From Oceanidesulfovibrio marinus (GTDB lineage Bacteria; Desulfobacterota; Desulfovibrionia; Desulfovibrionales; Desulfovibrionaceae): a DNA stretch of 64,000 nucleotides. Shown here piece by piece: positions 23,821-32,456 of the stretch; positions within the stretch are counted from its first letter, which is position 1, and every line of letters begins with the position of its first letter. The notes beneath the pieces are model-generated. The model saw nothing but the letters and a program-made list of their open reading frames with translations. It did not search any database and was not told where the DNA came from. The stretch covers positions 992,001 through 1,056,000 of the forward strand of contig NZ_CP039543.1 in assembly GCF_013085545.1 (NCBI RefSeq), given 5' to 3'. A program made the position numbers and the translations under genes.

Positions 23821-26800
23821 TTACCAGCTCTTCTTGCGCTGGGCCTCCAGGGCCTCGGTCTGCTCCTCGAAGGATGCGAAACCGGCCTGATGGAGCGCGT
23901 CCTCCACGGTCCGTCCCCAATCCCAGTTGGCGTAGATCACGACCTTGTGGAAGTGCTTGCGGAAGGTTTCCATCTCGGAACGGTAGAAGGACTCCTTGCT
24001 GGTGTCCAGGTGCTCGCGAAGCTGCTCGTGGAGCCGCGCCAGCTCGCCCTCGTACCACTCCATGAAGTCGGTCGGCGTCTTGTACTTCTTGAGGATGTGC
24101 TCGTAGTTGTGCGCCTTGAGCACGTGGGTCAGACGGTCCAGGAAGCGCTCGCCGAGCCACTTGCCCAACCCGGACACGGCGATGTTCTCCTGCTCCACCT
24201 CGGCCATGTCGTGCTTGGTCTGCTCGTAGGTGTCCGGCACCACGGATGCGGAGACGATGCCGGCGATGCCCACCAGGCCGCGCAGGATGACGGAGTTGGA
24301 GACGCCCTGGCCGCAGAAGCCCACCTTCTTGCCGTACTTCTGGCCGGTGAAGATGGTGACCAGGATGGCCCAGATCACGCCCGGGTCCTCCTCGTCGTAG
24401 ATGTGGCTGAGACGCGCGTTGTCGCGGTCCGTGGCCAGCACCATCTGGGTCATGTCGTTGGAGCCGATGGAGAAGCCGTCGAACTCCTCGATGAACTGCT
24501 TGGCCAGGATGGCGTTGGAGGGGATCTCGCTCATGAGGATGATCTTGAGCCCGTCCTTGCCGCTCTTGAGGTTGTGCACCTGCTCCACGTAGCGCTTCAT
24601 GGAGCGCGCCTCTTCCAGCGTACGCACGAAGGGGAACATGAGCTGGAGGTTGGTGCCGCCGAACACGCCGCGAGCGAGCTTGAACGCTTCGAGCTCCCAG
24701 TCGTGGATGTTGCGGGAGACGCCGCGGTAGCCCAGCATCGGGTTGTCCTCGATCTCCTCGAAGAGCGCGCCGCCGATAAGGTTGCGGTACTCGTTCGATT
24801 TGAAGTCCGTGGTGCGGTAGACGATGGGCTTGCCGTAGAAGGCCATGGCGAAGAGCGCCAGTCCCTGGGCCAGGGTCTGGGTGTAGTGCTCGCGGCCGGT
24901 GCGGTAACCGCGGGTCATGATGATCTCGCGGATCTTCTGCGGCACGCTGCGCAGCTCGTCCATGGCGCTGAGCAGGCCCACCTTCTGCGCCACTTCGCGG
25001 CGCAGGTTCTTAATCTTCTGGATGGTCTCCTGGACCTCGGGCACGTCCTTGATCTTGTCCACCTGCTCGCGAATGGCGGACTCGATCTCCTGACGCCGCT
25101 TGAGGGTGTCGGGGTCCTTACCGGTCAGAACGACCAGCTCATCCTTGTAGCCCATGATCAGGGAGACGTGCTCGGCCAGGTCCACGGAGGTCTTGAGCTC
25201 ATCGATGCGCCGCGTGGCCAGGGAGACGTAGTCGTCCAGCTTGCGGTCCAGCTCGCGCAGCTCGCGATGGATGGCCAGCACCTCGTCCGTGGAGCGGGAA
25301 ATCTCACGCTCGGTGAGCGCCTCCAGCTCGCGGGTCAGACCCGTGACCAGCCCCACGTAGTGGCGCAGCTTCATGTCCAGGGTCACCACGCCGGCGGCCA
25401 TCTGCTCGCGGATGATCTTTGTGAGCTGCTGCTCCAGATCGTCCAGCCGCGCCTCCACGGCCTCTTCCAGGCGGCCGTTGTCGTAGGCTTCCAGGGCCAG
25501 CGGGTGCACGGCGATGTTGCCGAGCATGAACTCGGCGCGCAGCAGGCCCACCTCGAAGTCCGGCACCTCGCGCAGACGCGAAAGGAACATGGACTGGCCC
25601 ACGTCGGCCAGGATGAGGCCGACCTTGGTCTTGGTCTTGGGCAGCTCGGCCACGTTGATCTCGCCGCCGACCTCGGCCAGGGGCAGCAGGCCGCGATAGA
25701 CCTTGCCGCTGGAGCCGTCCACCGTGACCTCCTGGCCGTCCAGGGAGCGCAGAAGCTCCAGCCGGCCGATGCCGATGACGGCGGGGATGCCCAGCTCGCG
25801 GGAGGTGATGGCTGCGTGGGAGGTGTCGCCGCCCACGTTGGCCAGAATGGCGGAAGCGATGCGCATGCCGGGGACCATGTCCGGATCGGTGCGGTCCGCG
25901 GCAAGGATGTCGCCCTTGTTGATCTTGTTCAGCTCCAGGGCAGAGCGCAGGAACTTGACTTGGCCCTGGCCGGCGCCGCGGGAGGCACCGTTGCCTTCCA
26001 GCAGCGACTCGGCCGTCTTGGTGGCCTTTGCCTCCACTTCCAGACGACGCATGAAGATGGTGTCCGGATGGAGCTCGAACTCCTCGTTCCAGCGGGTCTC
26101 GGGCCGGGCCTGCACGAACCACAGCCTGTCGGCCGCGTCGATGCAGAACTCGGTGTCCATGATCATGCCGCCATAGGCCTTGGAGATGGCGCGCACGCCC
26201 TTGGCAACGTCCTCGGCCTGAGCCAGGGAGAGGGACCAGCGGAACATCTCGTTGTCCGCCACGGCCACGACCTTGGTGCCGCCCTTGGCGTCGTAGACGA
26301 TCTTCTTGTCCTTGTGGCCCATCTGGCGGATGACGACCTCGGAGCTGTCATCGCGCTGGAACACGTAAAACTTGTCCGGCGTAACCATGCCGCCGACCAC
26401 AGCCTCGCCCAGGCCGTAGCTCGCATCCATGGACACGAGCTCCTTGCGCGCGGTGCCGCGGCATCCCGTGGCAGTGTCGGCGCTGAATGCCGTGCCCGAG
26501 ATCAGCGGGTTGATCATGCGCATGATGCAGACCGAGAGCGAGGTGTTCTCGATGGCCCACTCGCGCTTGGCCTTCTCGGCGATGTCCTCCTCGCCGGTGG
26601 ACTCCGCCGTGGCGATGGCGTCGAGAATGGCCTCGCGGCGGTAGGTCATGGAGCGCAGGTTGTAGGCCGAGGCGCAGTCCCAGTGGTAGGCTTCCACGCA
26701 GTGCTGCTCGCCCACGATGTTCAGGTAGGTGTCCTGCAAGCCGGCAAAGGCCTTCTTGCGGCTGTCTTCGCCTGCGGCGGAGGAACGCACGGCCACGGGC

Positions 26801-27426
26801 TCGTCCTCCAGGCCGGCCTCCTTGCAGATGGAGGCGTAGGCGGAGCGCACGGCCGTGTCCACGTCCTTCGGCACATCAACGGAAAGGATGGCCACCTGCA
26901 CAAGGACGCTACGCTTGCGGAGCTGGTCTATGCCTTCCGGCGAAGTGGCGAAGCCTTCCACCACATTGTTGATGAAGGTGCGCATCTTGACCTGGGTGGA
27001 CTCCCCGGCCGAAGAGCTGGTGGTGGAGTTCACTTCGGCGCCCAGACGGCGCACGAACTTTTGCAGGAACTCCGGATCCTTGTTGATCTCGGGGTCCGCC
27101 CAGTTGATGCGGTTGTATTCCTTGTTCACCACCTGGCGTATGAGCGTGGCGTTGACCTTGGTTTCGTCCAGGAGCTTATGGAAAGCCTTGGAGGAAATCG
27201 CCCGGAACTGCGGAGCGCGAATGCCCTTGACCTGGCTGATGATCGCCGTGTTGTAGTTCTTGCCACCGACAAGAAGCTCGCCCTCTTCCCCAAGGGCTAC
27301 GATATCAGCACCGTTCAATACGAGTTGGTTCCGGATTGCCTCCAGCTTTGCCTCGTCTTTTCCGGCGGTCTGTTTACTCTCAGATTTATTAGAAGCTTTG
27401 GACTTGTCGTCCTTGCTTTTTGCCAT
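23821..27426 (-). CDS. large PEP synthase / PEP-utilising enzyme
   Basis: A 1201-residue protein, against about 790 for E. coli PpsA. A Lys/Ser-rich N-terminal tail precedes the ATP-grasp half: VAVRSSAAGEDSRKKAFAGLQDTYLNI near residue 211, and FVQARPETRW near residue 437. The swivelling phospho-histidine domain carries GGDTSHAAITSRELGIPAVIG with His537. The PEP/pyruvate TIM barrel has GLLRAEFMLGNIAVHPLAL and then FKSNEYRNLIGG (near residue 875). MSEIPSN, SIGSNDMTQMVLATDRD and KVGFCGQGVSN (Cys1038) complete it, so all catalytic centres are present. About 160 extra, mostly helical residues lie between roughly 655 and 835, and about 115 extra at the C-terminus. It probably interconverts pyruvate and PEP, and it is beside the pyruvate-carboxylase-like gene. 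Confidence 0.9.
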   Translation of the reverse strand: MAKSKDDKSKASNKSESKQTAGKDEAKLEAIRNQLVLNGADIVALGEEGELLVGGKNYNTAIISQVKGIRAPQFRAISSKAFHKLLDETKVNATLIRQVVNKEYNRINWADPEINKDPEFLQKFVRRLGAEVNSTTSSSAGESTQVKMRTFINNVVEGFATSPEGIDQLRKRSVLVQVAILSVDVPKDVDTAVRSAYASICKEAGLEDEPVAVRSSAAGEDSRKKAFAGLQDTYLNIVGEQHCVEAYHWDCASAYNLRSMTYRREAILDAIATAESTGEEDIAEKAKREWAIENTSLSVCIMRMINPLISGTAFSADTATGCRGTARKELVSMDASYGLGEAVVGGMVTPDKFYVFQRDDSSEVVIRQMGHKDKKIVYDAKGGTKVVAVADNEMFRWSLSLAQAEDVAKGVRAISKAYGGMIMDTEFCIDAADRLWFVQARPETRWNEEFELHPDTIFMRRLEVEAKATKTAESLLEGNGASRGAGQGQVKFLRSALELNKINKGDILAADRTDPDMVPGMRIASAILANVGGDTSHAAITSRELGIPAVIGIGRLELLRSLDGQEVTVDGSSGKVYRGLLPLAEVGGEINVAELPKTKTKVGLILADVGQSMFLSRLREVPDFEVGLLRAEFMLGNIAVHPLALEAYDNGRLEEAVEARLDDLEQQLTKIIREQMAAGVVTLDMKLRHYVGLVTGLTRELEALTEREISRSTDEVLAIHRELRELDRKLDDYVSLATRRIDELKTSVDLAEHVSLIMGYKDELVVLTGKDPDTLKRRQEIESAIREQVDKIKDVPEVQETIQKIKNLRREVAQKVGLLSAMDELRSVPQKIREIIMTRGYRTGREHYTQTLAQGLALFAMAFYGKPIVYRTTDFKSNEYRNLIGGALFEEIEDNPMLGYRGVSRNIHDWELEAFKLARGVFGGTNLQLMFPFVRTLEEARSMKRYVEQVHNLKSGKDGLKIILMSEIPSNAILAKQFIEEFDGFSIGSNDMTQMVLATDRDNARLSHIYDEEDPGVIWAILVTIFTGQKYGKKVGFCGQGVSNSVILRGLVGIAGIVSASVVPDTYEQTKHDMAEVEQENIAVSGLGKWLGERFLDRLTHVLKAHNYEHILKKYKTPTDFMEWYEGELARLHEQLREHLDTSKESFYRSEMETFRKHFHKVVIYANWDWGRTVEDALHQAGFASFEEQTEALEAQRKKSW

Positions 27427-27518
27427 GGGCGTCCTCCTCCTTGGGCGCGCTCATCGGAAACGGGAAACTGCCCTTTCCCGCCGCCGAGCATTGCAAAGTG
27501 ATCGAACGGGATACGGAA

Positions 27519-27545: not shown

Positions 27546-27618
27546 GCTTGAGTTCATGATATATTCATGTAGCTTTTTCGACTCGGGTTCGTCAATTCTC
27601 CGTCGAAATCGAATCGTA

Positions 27619-30600
27619 TCACAGAGCCGCTTCCTCGCCCAGTCTCTCGCCACAATGTGGGCAGTATCTGCAGGCCACATCCATCAACGGCTTCTCGCAG
27701 GTGGGACACGTCACCGGTGCGGCTTCCAGCTCCACGATGAGCTCGCCGCCCTTCACCGGCACCATCTGCCTGTCCTCCGAGTACTTTGCTGTCTTGAGCA
27801 CCCGTTTCACGTGCCCGTCCACGGGCGCCAACACGGCCTTCTCCTGCTTCATGATGGAGATATTGAATATCTCTTCGCCCTTCTTCACCATGTCGCCGGG
27901 GCTCACGTACATCACCCAGAGATCACCGGTGCCCGGAGAGCCCATGTGGTACGGGTTGTTGGGATCGGCCATCTCCAGGCCGCCCTCGACGTGGGACTCC
28001 ACCTCGCACACCTTGACCTCGTAGTCCAGGATCTCGCTGTCCAGGATGTAGCGCACGATGCTCATGCCGCGATCGTCCGGGCGCGTGATGCGCAGGACAG
28101 TCATGCTGTGCGGCTTGCCGGCCGAGTCGTTGAACTGCACTTCCTTGCTGATCTCGGCGCCCTCGAACCACACGTCCAGAGGCAGACAGTTCGGGTTGCC
28201 GAACTCGTTGTGGAAACGAATGGTGTTCAGCGCATCGCCCGGATGGTTCAGGTACATGACGAACTCTTCTTCGCTGGGCTCGCGCTGCAGATGGCCGCGC
28301 AATGCCTCGCGCTCCTCCGTGAGGTCCATGTCCTTGAGGAACTCCAGGGGCGAAACCTCGGTACGCTTGGCCAGGGCCTTCTTGTAGTCGCGGCCAAAGG
28401 CGCTGCGGTAGACCCAATCCGGCGGGAACCCCAGGGGCAGCCGGCCGTACTTGCCCAGAAGCAGATCGCGGAAGGCGTCGTTGGCGTCCTGGTAGATCAT
28501 CAGCGCAGGCGCCTTGCCGTCAGGGTCGATCTCCTGGGTCGGATTGTTCACCACGCCGTCCAGCACGTCCAGCAGGGTCAGCACCTCTTCCTCGCCGCCG
28601 CGCTGGTATGCGGATGTCACGGCCAGGAAGGCCGTGTTCCAGGTGACCTGGGAGCCGGGCGTTACGTCGTGGTAGCGCACGATCTTCCGCGTACCGGCCA
28701 AAAAGCGCAGCATGTACGGCAGCAGGTGGATGTAGCCCTGCTTCATGGCCCCTTCCTGGGACGAGGACGTAGCGCCGCCGGGCATGGCGTGCTCCACCAC
28801 ATCGTAGTCGATGCCCTGGAAGAACGGGGTGCAGTAGCGATCGTAGTACGGCATGATCTGCTTGAGCACGAAGTTGGCCTGGCGAATCATGCCCTTGTCC
28901 AGATTGGTCTTCAGGCCGAGCTCATCCTCTATATATGCGGCCGTAGAGAGCACGTCACCCTGGCCGTACCAGCGCACCGTGGAGCCGATGGCCGTGTCCA
29001 CGATATGCGCGCCGGCCTCTGCCGCGGCGCCCACCGCCGGCACGAACAGGCCGTCCGTGTAGTGGCGATGGTAGTGCAGCACCAGGTCGGGCCACCTCTT
29101 GCGCAGAGCCTCCACCAGGGCGCGGATGAACCGCGGCGGGCACATCCCGGCCATGTCTTTGAGGCCCAGGATGATGCGCTTGGACGCCTCGGTGGTGTTC
29201 ACGCCGGCCACGTCGCCCACCATGCGCAGGATCTCCTCGGTCACGCCGAGGTAGTGGTCCACATCGAAGCCGCGCGACCAGGACATGGAGAGCGCCGGCT
29301 CGAAGATGTTTGCCTTGGAGTCCAGCACGACCTCGGCGAATGAGCGCATGTTCTCGATGTGGTTGAGGAAGTCGAAGCAGCGGATGATGTCGTAGTGCTC
29401 GTTCACCATCTCGCCGGTCAGCCGCATGATGTTCTTGGGCTGTGGCTTGTAGCCGAGCACGTTGGTGGAGCGAATCAGGATCTGCTTCAGCGTCTTGGGC
29501 GCGAACTCGTTCCACTTCTTCCCCTCCGTGAAGGGGTAGGTCATATTCGCGAGCATGGCCACGTGGAAGTGGGCGCCGCCGCCATTCTCCAGAGAGAAGA
29601 AGCGGCAGTTGTCCAGGTACGGGCCCATGACCTCGTCTTCGGCCAAGCGGAAGCGGTTGCCGCTGTTGGACTGCGTGATGTCGCGCGCCGTGGTGTCCGT
29701 AAAGTGGGTGTAGCCGGAGTCGCGCACGAAATCGAGGATCGCCTTGCGGTCGCCGCGGGGATACGGCGTGGGATGATCCTTCACGTCGAATTTGGGCTGC
29801 ACGATCTCGTACTTGGGCATGCGCGGCGTATCGCGCGAGCGGTACTCCCCGTACTTGATGTGCGGGTTGTAGCCCTTGGCCGTGATCTCGGCGATGAGGC
29901 GCGAGAGGCGCGTGGATTCGGTCTCCACGTCCAGATAGTTGTAAATCTCCGGATGCTCCGCGATGAAGGCGGTGTTGTACTCGCCGGCGCGGAACACGGG
30001 ATGCTTGATGACCTGGCGATGGAACGGGATCGTGGTCTTGATGCCGCCGATGGTGTACTCGCGCAGGGCGCGGTTCATCACGGCCAGGGTCTTCTCCCAC
30101 GAGGAGCCCATACTGATGAGCAGCGATCCTGCCGAGTCGTACTGCGAGGGGAACTCGTAGCCGGCGGCGATGCACGAATCGAGGCGCACGCCGGGACCGC
30201 CCGCCGAGATATACCGGGTGATCAACCCGGAGTTGGGCGCGAAGTTCTGCTTGGGGTCCTCGCAGTTGATGCGCACCTGCATAGCGTGCAGCAGCGGTTT
30301 GGTCTCCTCCTCGTTGAAGCGCAGCTCGCCGTCAAAGGCGATGGCGATCTGCTCTTCCACCAGGTCGATGCCGTAGCGGCTTTCGGTAATACCGTGCTCC
30401 ACCTGCAGGCGGGTGTTGGCCTCGATGAGGTACGGCTCGCCCGTGGAGTCCACCAGGAACTCCACCGTGGCCAGGGAGTAGTAGTCCACGGCCTTGACCA
30501 GCCGGATGGAGTACTCCTTGAGCCGTTCGCGCAGCTCCTGGGTCATTCCCGGCCAGGGCGAAGGCGTGATCTCGATGAGCTTCTGGTGATTGCGCTGCAC

Positions 30601-31323
30601 GGAGCAGTCGCGTTCGTCAAAGGCGAAGACATTGCCGTACTTGTCGGCAATGACCTGAATCTCGATATGCCGGATGTCCGTGAGCATCTTTTCCACGAAC
30701 AGCCGGGGGTTGCCAAAGGAGGCCTTGGCCATGACCGAGGCTTTCTCGAAGGCGCTCTCAAGCTCTTTCTCGCTGTGCACGGCAAAGATGCCGCGGCCTC
30801 CGCCGCCGCCTTCCGCCTTGAGCATGATGGGGAAGCCGATCTCCTGGGCAAGGCGGCGCGCCTCGGGAATGTCCACGGCGCCGTTGGAGCCGGGCACCAC
30901 AGGAACGCCGAGCTCCTGGGCAAGCTGCCGCAGGGCGACTTTGTTGCCCAGCTTGCGCATGGGCTCGGCCCATGCACCGATAAAGCGGATGCCCGCCTCG
31001 TCGCAGAGCTTTGGAAAGGCCTCATCCTCGGAGGCGAAGCCCCAGCCGGGGTGGATGGCCACCACGCCGCGCGCCTTGGCTTTGCGAATGATGAGCTCGA
31101 TATCCAGATAGGCGCGGGGATCTTTGCCCAGCAGCAAAAGCTCCTGAGCGCCGGAAGTGGAGGGCGAGGTTTTGTCCACCTGGGTGGCGGTCATAATCGG
31201 GATGGCGTCGAATCGCTCGTAAATAGAGCGCAGGATGCGGCGTGCCGGGATGCCCCGGTTGGCAACCAGAATGGGCTTGCCCTTGATCTCTTCCTGGACT
31301 TTCTGGAAAGACTTGATTGACAC
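27619..31323 (-). CDS. pyc: divergent pyruvate carboxylase with C-terminal zinc ribbon
   Basis: A 1234-residue biotin enzyme. The biotin carboxylase half shows ILVANRGIPARRILRSI, AIHPGWGFASEDEAF, KAEGGGGGRGIF, DERDCSVQRNHQKLIEI and EANTRLQVEH, so the catalytic E/N/R are kept. The carboxyltransferase half has TTARDITQS, QILIRSTNVLGY, FDFLNHIENM, GLKDMAGMCPP (carboxylated Lys) and HYHRHYTDG (metal histidines). The biotin acceptor is Lys1159 in IMKQE, in place of the usual AMKM. Unusually, the protein ends in a zinc-ribbon-like CPTC...C..CPHC tail (Cys1206, 1209, 1218, 1221, 1224), not present in ordinary pyruvate carboxylases. Where standard enzymes have MSGMTSQP this one has TVRWYGQG. Likely product is oxaloacetate from pyruvate, but the substrate is not proven. 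Confidence 0.88.
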   Translation of the reverse strand: MSIKSFQKVQEEIKGKPILVANRGIPARRILRSIYERFDAIPIMTATQVDKTSPSTSGAQELLLLGKDPRAYLDIELIIRKAKARGVVAIHPGWGFASEDEAFPKLCDEAGIRFIGAWAEPMRKLGNKVALRQLAQELGVPVVPGSNGAVDIPEARRLAQEIGFPIMLKAEGGGGGRGIFAVHSEKELESAFEKASVMAKASFGNPRLFVEKMLTDIRHIEIQVIADKYGNVFAFDERDCSVQRNHQKLIEITPSPWPGMTQELRERLKEYSIRLVKAVDYYSLATVEFLVDSTGEPYLIEANTRLQVEHGITESRYGIDLVEEQIAIAFDGELRFNEEETKPLLHAMQVRINCEDPKQNFAPNSGLITRYISAGGPGVRLDSCIAAGYEFPSQYDSAGSLLISMGSSWEKTLAVMNRALREYTIGGIKTTIPFHRQVIKHPVFRAGEYNTAFIAEHPEIYNYLDVETESTRLSRLIAEITAKGYNPHIKYGEYRSRDTPRMPKYEIVQPKFDVKDHPTPYPRGDRKAILDFVRDSGYTHFTDTTARDITQSNSGNRFRLAEDEVMGPYLDNCRFFSLENGGGAHFHVAMLANMTYPFTEGKKWNEFAPKTLKQILIRSTNVLGYKPQPKNIMRLTGEMVNEHYDIIRCFDFLNHIENMRSFAEVVLDSKANIFEPALSMSWSRGFDVDHYLGVTEEILRMVGDVAGVNTTEASKRIILGLKDMAGMCPPRFIRALVEALRKRWPDLVLHYHRHYTDGLFVPAVGAAAEAGAHIVDTAIGSTVRWYGQGDVLSTAAYIEDELGLKTNLDKGMIRQANFVLKQIMPYYDRYCTPFFQGIDYDVVEHAMPGGATSSSQEGAMKQGYIHLLPYMLRFLAGTRKIVRYHDVTPGSQVTWNTAFLAVTSAYQRGGEEEVLTLLDVLDGVVNNPTQEIDPDGKAPALMIYQDANDAFRDLLLGKYGRLPLGFPPDWVYRSAFGRDYKKALAKRTEVSPLEFLKDMDLTEEREALRGHLQREPSEEEFVMYLNHPGDALNTIRFHNEFGNPNCLPLDVWFEGAEISKEVQFNDSAGKPHSMTVLRITRPDDRGMSIVRYILDSEILDYEVKVCEVESHVEGGLEMADPNNPYHMGSPGTGDLWVMYVSPGDMVKKGEEIFNISIMKQEKAVLAPVDGHVKRVLKTAKYSEDRQMVPVKGGELIVELEAAPVTCPTCEKPLMDVACRYCPHCGERLGEEAAL

Positions 31324-31466: not shown

Positions 31467-32456
31467 TCAGGATTCGAGGGGGGTCAGCTGCGCCGATGAG
31501 AAAGTCTTCTCACCGTCATCAAATGCGATGCGGATAGCCCCGTGAACAGTGAGCCCTACTATTGTTCCTGCACGTTTGTCAAAATCCAAGTGCTCTTTTG
31601 GCGATGATTCGTGCCATACGGAAACTGGCCGCCCTTTCCAGGCCAGACGCGCCTCGGCGCGCTCCACCACCTCGGCAGCGCTCCATTTCGCGAGCTCCTC
31701 GTAATGCCTGCGCGCCGCCGGAGCCACGGCCTGCCACAGCGCCAGCGGTCCGGCGCGGCGCTTGGTGGGGTCCGGGTCCTGCACCAGACATCCAGCAGGC
31801 ACGGCGTGGCCGTCCCGCAGCGTCTCGGCCGGGGGTGTCTCGTTCAGATTCACGCCGATACCAGCGATGAGCACGCCACCGCGCTCTTCCAGTAAGATGC
31901 CGCCCACCTTGAGGCCCCAGCCCCTTTCGCCCACCGGCCGGCCCTCGCACTGCATGAGCACCAGGTCATTGGGCCACTTGAGCTCCAGCTCGATGCCCAG
32001 CTCGGAAAACGCCTCGGCCAGGGCCACGCCCGTGACGATGGATGCCAGCTCATCCCCCGGCCCTGCAGGCGAGGGAATCCGCCACCCCACGTACATGTTG
32101 CCCTCCGGCGAATGCCAGCCGCGGCGAAGCTGCCCACGGCCCGCCCACTGGCTGCCTACGATGACGGAGTCCCACTCCTGCAGGCCGCCGGACGCGCCCA
32201 GCTCCCGGCCGATATCCAGGGCGGAGGAGGCGGCGGAAAAGAAAAGAATCGCCGGACCGCCGTCGTCCTTGTTCACCTCGCTGACCATGCAGCTACCCGG
32301 AACGCCGGGAGGGCACGGCGCGTCGTCCCACATGGCCAGCTCCACCAGATCGTGGCCCCAGCCGTCCGGCGGAGCGGTCCAGTCCAGGGGCTTCGCAATA
32401 TCCTTGATCGGTCCGGCCGCCTCGGGCGTTTCTGCCTGCCAAATGTATACGGGCAT
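31467..32456 (-). CDS. birA: biotin--[biotin carboxyl-carrier] ligase
   Basis: A 329-residue ligase that activates biotin with ATP and attaches it to the acceptor lysine of carboxylases. The signature GRGQLRRGWHSPEGNMYVGW (near residue 106), LKWPNDLVL and LKVGGILLEERGGVLIAGIGVNLN are clear. There is no N-terminal helix-turn-helix domain, so it is the non-repressor type. It is 143 bases upstream of the pyruvate-carboxylase-like gene, same strand, and that carboxylase is its obvious substrate. An N-terminal region of about 85 residues before the catalytic core is not typical and is unassigned. It is divergent from cca. Confidence 0.9.
   Translation of the reverse strand: MPVYIWQAETPEAAGPIKDIAKPLDWTAPPDGWGHDLVELAMWDDAPCPPGVPGSCMVSEVNKDDGGPAILFFSAASSALDIGRELGASGGLQEWDSVIVGSQWAGRGQLRRGWHSPEGNMYVGWRIPSPAGPGDELASIVTGVALAEAFSELGIELELKWPNDLVLMQCEGRPVGERGWGLKVGGILLEERGGVLIAGIGVNLNETPPAETLRDGHAVPAGCLVQDPDPTKRRAGPLALWQAVAPAARRHYEELAKWSAAEVVERAEARLAWKGRPVSVWHESSPKEHLDFDKRAGTIVGLTVHGAIRIAFDDGEKTFSSAQLTPLES

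Follow-up and report, generated by a model that had tools for sequence, protein, structure and literature searches.

The usual view of single-chain pyruvate carboxylase (PC) is of a single lineage activated by acetyl-CoA. In a published PC phylogeny, two types of carboxyltransferase (CT), polypeptide and archaeal/decarboxylase, were recognized and some very divergent bacterial homologs were set aside (PMC3199775). In Desulfovibrio desulfuricans, PC was used to explain oxaloacetate labeling and was assumed as the anaplerotic step (PMC7547702), and in D. vulgaris Hildenborough the PC DVU_1834 and the phosphoenolpyruvate (PEP) synthase DVU_1833 were detected in the proteome and filed under gluconeogenesis (PMC10920352); no biochemical study of DVU_1834 was found in the literature searched. 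Here we describe a PC gene from Oceanidesulfovibrio marinus, located on the minus strand at positions 27619..31323 of the stretch of 64,000 nucleotides that was analyzed (the window). It stands in the same order with a PEP synthase gene as DVU_1834 does, and its product is of the same size (136 kDa). By its sequence the product is a single-chain PC in the broad sense (EC 6.4.1.1), predicted to carboxylate pyruvate, and it is judged orthologous to DVU_1834 on the basis of neighborhood and size. It is very likely a functional biotin-dependent enzyme with an anaplerotic role, supplying oxaloacetate for biosynthesis.

Translation from a GTG start at 31323 gives one chain of 1234 aa, and the gene and all of its features lie on the minus strand. 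The biotin carboxylase (BC) domain (residues 16-456; 29956..31278) is covered by PF00289, PF02786, and PF02785, with Pfam matches over 16-455, and is followed by a linker (residues 457-535; 29719..29955) and by the CT region (residues 536-905; 28609..29718), which is covered by HMGL-like and NCBIfam models and has the predicted fold of PC. A Pfam match to PYC_OADA (the PYC_OADA/PT part) spans residues 842-1073. The biotin carrier domain (BCCP; residues 1125-1200; 27724..27951; PF00364, matched at 1128-1178) holds the biotin lysine, Lys1159, within IMKQEK (27847-27849), and behind it comes a Cys4 zinc-ribbon-like tail, C1206-x2-C1209 ... C1221-x2-C1224-G1225 (27649..27708). BC, CT/PYC_OADA, and biotin carrier have the order found in single-chain PC, on one 1234-aa chain rather than on the separate BC and CT chains of two-subunit enzymes. 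An earlier interpretation of this DNA, the sequence-only reading, had placed the gene and its features correctly, and the intact BC core and biotin domain that it described are borne out by the Pfam domains. The NCBIfam single-chain PC model PRK12999 was passed (1262 bits, cut-off 965), and the canonical PC model TIGR01235 failed widely (651 bits, cut-off 1114.45). A structural model of residues 471-1234 (CT-PT-BCCP) had a mean pLDDT of 79.5 and a pTM of 0.76, and among the matches listed all were PC structures, human PC 8j7o having a TM of 0.76/0.84. A second model, of the last 130 residues, matched PC carrier domains (human PC BCCP, Z 15.6, 81 residues, 1.2 A); its fold-search lists were taken up by carrier-domain matches, with none to the tail.

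All residues required by the mechanism are present in the sequence and invariant. We predict that the BC domain carboxylates biotin on Lys1159 with ATP and bicarbonate, after which the carrier domain would swing to the CT domain. There D548, carboxylated K722 (29158..29160; R. etli K718 by alignment, invariant in 80 homologs), H752, and H754 would hold the metal, the metal and R618 would position pyruvate, and T888 (28660..28662) would pass a proton, with transfer of the carboxyl group.

In domain order, predicted fold, and catalytic residues the protein resembles the canonical single-chain PCs (R. etli 2qf7, S. aureus 3bg5, L. lactis 5vyw, human), but it differs from them in having a CT of another lineage, a replacement of the TSQP loop, no acetyl-CoA arginines, MKQE at the biotin site, and the additional Cys4 tail. 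Its nearest CT relatives (36-39% identity) are the two-subunit PC-like enzymes of Desulfobacterota, composed of a 690-aa CT-BCCP protein and a 480-aa BC protein, which have in common with it the motifs RDxxQSxxxNR, HRHxTDG, R(F/W)YG(Q/H), and VTPGSQITW, whereas they are encoded by two genes, lack the tail, and have MKM or MKT at the biotin site. OadA, two-subunit PycB, and transcarboxylase 5S (5ks8, 2nx9, 1rqb) are alike in CT fold, metal site, and Gln for Lys886, but the OadA-type proteins retain a TSQP-type loop and their CTs branch with those of canonical PC.

The CTs found in a survey of the phylum comprise the 1234-aa type, two-subunit classes of ~690, 650, and 560 aa, OadA-type proteins, and canonical PCs. 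In the tree built from the CTs, the closest group to the 1234-aa type is the two-subunit class of 690 aa, with support of 100/99, followed by the 650- and 560-aa classes, and the canonical PCs and OadA-type proteins lie together across a long branch (100/100). The CT described here thus groups with the two-subunit lineage and not with the canonical single-chain PCs, and a tree placing all single-chain PCs in one CT clade was rejected (approximately unbiased [AU] test, p-AU 0.00065). In view of a program warning about long branches, the tree was rebuilt with each of the three major groups dropped in turn, and the split stayed at an SH-aLRT of 99-100. The first part of the linker (RLIAEI..GYNP), at the end of the BC part, is most like the C-terminal end of BC proteins from two-subunit enzymes (profile score 106), with lower scores of 66 to the BC of the 690-aa class and 58 to the canonical linker. 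As read from these sequences, the single chain probably arose by fusion of BC and CT proteins of the two-subunit type, apart from canonical PC.

The alternative that survives best is an ancestral single chain, in which the canonical and Desulfovibrio-type PCs would both be old and the two-subunit enzymes would have arisen by repeated fission; we regard it as possible, though rather unlikely. The BC tree is a star that does not reject one single-chain clade (p-AU 0.355); therefore an ancestral single chain may have undergone fission, and a fusion cannot be dated from BC. The linker also still aligns with its canonical counterpart, a match too weak to serve as proof of a shared origin with canonical PC. 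Against fission, the BC C-terminus fits the two-subunit BC proteins far better, and the CT tree would need ~3 fissions as opposed to 2 fusions. Two frames of 1221 and 1289 aa with a two-subunit-type CT were also seen (G217:C6 and G167:C6; L160, L161), and either represent further fusions or are frames that happen to stay open far upstream.

Conservation was assessed in two sets, 25 intact order-level relatives and 80 loci of a genome collection; two rows of the order-level alignment (L012 and L019) are wrong-frame open reading frames (ORFs) and were left out of the count. Throughout the 80 collection loci the biotin site M1158-K-Q-E-K1162, the loop residues R784, Y786, G787, Q788, and G789, and the tail residues C1206, C1209, C1221, C1224, and G1225 are invariant, bar one tail lost where the locus ends at a contig edge. 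With the pattern present in 79/80 homologs, the tail is therefore far from chance. Departures were seen in order-level relatives at the loop (one SYGQG, one WYGHG), in a few members with 2 additional residues within the first tail knuckle, and in a more distant member (L127, 53% identity), which keeps the tail but reads MKVE around the biotin lysine and YGQT in the loop. The biotin motif is IMKQE, as had been stated, and the enzyme is lineage-specific, as had been proposed, its members making up a single clade from Desulfovibrionales and certain other Desulfobacterota. Not every member of the family has it, as several complete genomes are without it. Sampling outside the phylum consisted of plasmid records, and these collections held nothing closer than ordinary PCs at ~32%; a two-subunit CT query found no nearer match in them. 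PCs of 68-69% identity occur in records named Oxalobacter, Bacillota, and Alistipes (L053, L059, L091, L098), of which the names or bins are probably wrong.

The Cys4 tail is present in close homologs and absent from 36/36 other PC-type CTs compared, namely 14 distinct two-subunit 690-aa proteins, 8 shorter split proteins, 4 OadA/456-aa proteins, and 10 canonical PCs; the claim that ordinary PCs lack it agrees with the 0/10 canonical PCs that carry it. Four of the five cysteines first assigned to the tail are conserved (C1206, C1209, C1221, C1224) and form two invariant CxxC knuckles, as expected of a zinc ribbon, whereas Cys1218 varies. The tail probably binds zinc, and its role is most likely structural, in assembly or in docking of the carrier domain or a partner, to judge from the residue pattern. 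A Cys4 zinc site is attached to a biotin-carboxylase system in AccD, the acetyl-CoA carboxylase beta subunit, but there the ribbon precedes an unrelated CT fold instead of following a biotin carrier domain. A literature search returned no paper joining a zinc ribbon with PC. That the tail is instead a redox switch, closing a disulfide, would suit hosts that are strict anaerobes, and a Cys-containing C-terminal extension protects the pyruvate:ferredoxin oxidoreductase of D. africanus. We nevertheless think a switch quite unlikely, given that a pair of CxxC knuckles, with four invariant cysteines and a Gly right after them, is a typical zinc-ribbon pattern and that the fifth Cys is not conserved.

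The CT pocket had been read as altered. Its Asp, carboxylated-Lys, and metal-His segments are kept, as that reading held, and D548, K722, H752, H754, R618, and T888 make up the conserved metal and catalytic set of PC. The replacement of MSGMTSQP by TVRWYGQG is also real: multiple alignment puts T-V-R-W-Y-G-Q-G on M-S-G-x-T-S-Q-P, so that V783-R-W-Y-G-Q-G789 (28957..28977) stands in place of the canonical loop and Y-G-Q-G in place of T-S/A-Q-P. The TSQP motif does not recur nearby in a shifted position, and the pairing of Tyr786 with the Thr column is genuine. The proposed change of a substrate-side Thr to Tyr is accordingly correct as to the column, but that Thr is not the catalytic one, which is T888. 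In R. etli PC, loss of Thr882 abolishes activity (PMC5895798), and the equivalent Thr867 of L. lactis PC contacts pyruvate and biotin (PMC9581989). This residue, in V-T-P-S-S-K, aligns with T888, so that the catalytic Thr has not been lost. Positions in R. etli were numbered as those of the closely related R. leguminosarum protein (L162) + 2, which makes the VTPSSK Thr 882, as published.

A changed substrate had been inferred from this loop. Under this explanation the protein is a 2-oxoacid carboxylase for another substrate, for example 2-oxoglutarate or 2-oxobutyrate, in which YGQG reshapes the pocket and leaves the chemistry unchanged. It draws on a loop where the CT barrel ends, in which the clade and its two-subunit relatives have Tyr/Gly for Thr/Ser, and on the CT identity to canonical PC of only 25-28%. 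Alignment shows, however, that a Tyr/Phe loop is common to the whole group of two-subunit relatives, and is therefore a mark of the lineage rather than a private change. R547, D548, Q551, A584, L616, R618, Y625, K722, H752, H754, T888, and S891 are the canonical residues in the clade, including Arg618 for the pyruvate carboxylate and the metal and proton-shuttle residues, and these are kept in every class examined, with few exceptions in the 560-aa class. Lys886 to Gln is the sole change among mapped contacts, and OadA-type enzymes have it likewise. Since the pocket residues are kept and the loop is lineage-wide, a changed substrate is not the best reading. Genome context points to pyruvate carboxylation as well: this is the sole PYC_OADA protein in the 4.76-Mb genome, searches of which found neither of the two types of PEP carboxylase nor a GTP-dependent PEP carboxykinase (PEPCK), its neighbor is a pyruvate enzyme, PEP synthase, and in the phylum survey, at E<=1e-20, a second PC-type CT was absent from 15/16 sampled genomes that carry the 1234-aa type. 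Another substrate thus seems improbable to us. That mis-assembly, a frameshift, or chance extension produced the tail and the odd loop has next to no chance of being right, identical features being present in the 25 intact relatives and 80 loci from independent assemblies.

Several points weigh against a functional PC with the history and parts described above. The loop residues expected at the barrel mouth differ, and the specificity for 2-oxoacids may, on sequence, be broader or shifted. No enzymatic assay of the Desulfovibrio-type PC clade was found in the literature searched. A 581-aa protein (L169, G000:C1:1275500-1278500) has a weak partial match to PEPCK(ATP) of ~30 bits (cut-off 26.5) and may be a divergent PEPCK, which could also make oxaloacetate; PC is therefore the main, though perhaps not the sole, source of this compound. 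On the star-like BC tree, BC and CT may or may not share one history. Lastly, the tail was modeled with moderate confidence (pLDDT 62-76), and the case for zinc is the Cys pattern itself.

Changed regulation, a further suggestion of the sequence-only reading, gains independent support. At the positions that match Arg427, Arg429, and Arg472 of R. etli PC, which bind acetyl-CoA in the canonical enzyme, Arg is present in 10/10 canonical PCs and in 0/10 enzymes of the clade. Here T, G, and E occupy these columns, the first two within T424-I425-G426 (30046..30054) and the third being E469 (29917-29919), and the arginines are replaced in all members examined. Because these activator-site arginines are missing, the Desulfovibrio-type PC is probably acetyl-CoA independent. 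Such independence would suit cells with a continuous flux from lactate to acetyl-CoA. Changed assembly is plausible, in view of the putative separate fusion and the extra tail.

Directly upstream of the PC gene lies a gene for a biotin protein ligase of 329 aa (31467..32456, minus strand; PF03099); no other PF03099 protein was found in the genome. The ligase's biotin loop, GRGQLRRGW, has Gln109 (32130-32132, minus strand) in the column of Arg48 of the P. horikoshii ligase, which is mutated in the R48A entries and corresponds to E. coli BirA Arg118. Gln occupies this Arg118-type position in 63/68 ligases of related loci. The BirA change R118G is the one behind promiscuous proximity-labeling enzymes. 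A second likely biotin carrier is encoded beside acetyl-CoA carboxylase genes (L176, G000:C1:1225284-1225928, minus strand; with L177-L197), with the motif SRMKRE in 22/22 genomes. With MKQE and MKRE, both acceptors of the order are thus without the usual Met after the lysine. Next to accC there is an acyl-CoA carboxyltransferase-like ORF of at least ~764 aa (L168, G000:C1:1226000-1231500), with a Cys-rich zinc-ribbon-like stretch of its own, CPNAATHGC...CSYC, as in AccD.

These features can be joined in one tentative proposal, that single-chain PC was built at least twice, and that the Desulfovibrio-type enzyme was put together independently the second time, from a third lineage of CT, escapes control by acetyl-CoA, and has a zinc ribbon that holds or steers it, with a co-adapted Gln ligase that modifies it and recognizes MK[QR]E, not MKM, in both biotin proteins. 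Taken together it is doubtful, with perhaps a minority chance of holding. If true, a third lineage with a zinc tail and without an activator site would be a natural test of the parts that govern carrier movement and regulation, and the linked Gln ligase would be a natural variant at the residue mutated in proximity-labeling enzymes.

The gene directly downstream of PC (23821..27426, minus strand) encodes the PEP synthase, the counterpart of DVU_1833, identified by Pfam and PRK06464. At 1201 aa it extends ~400 residues beyond the usual 800-aa enzyme, and PRK06464 was barely passed (600.5 bits, cut-off 598). The order ligase-PC-PEP synthase was seen in most Desulfovibrionales loci; in loci named after Desulfobacterales the ligase is usually kept and there is no adjoining PEP synthase. 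Long plus-strand frames of 1203, 595, and 653 aa lie antisense to the PEP synthase and PC genes (window 23890-27501, 27556-31320). The 1203-aa frame opposite PEP synthase was rejected as a gene, having no Pfam match, and these antisense frames are probably shadows of GC-rich coding DNA.

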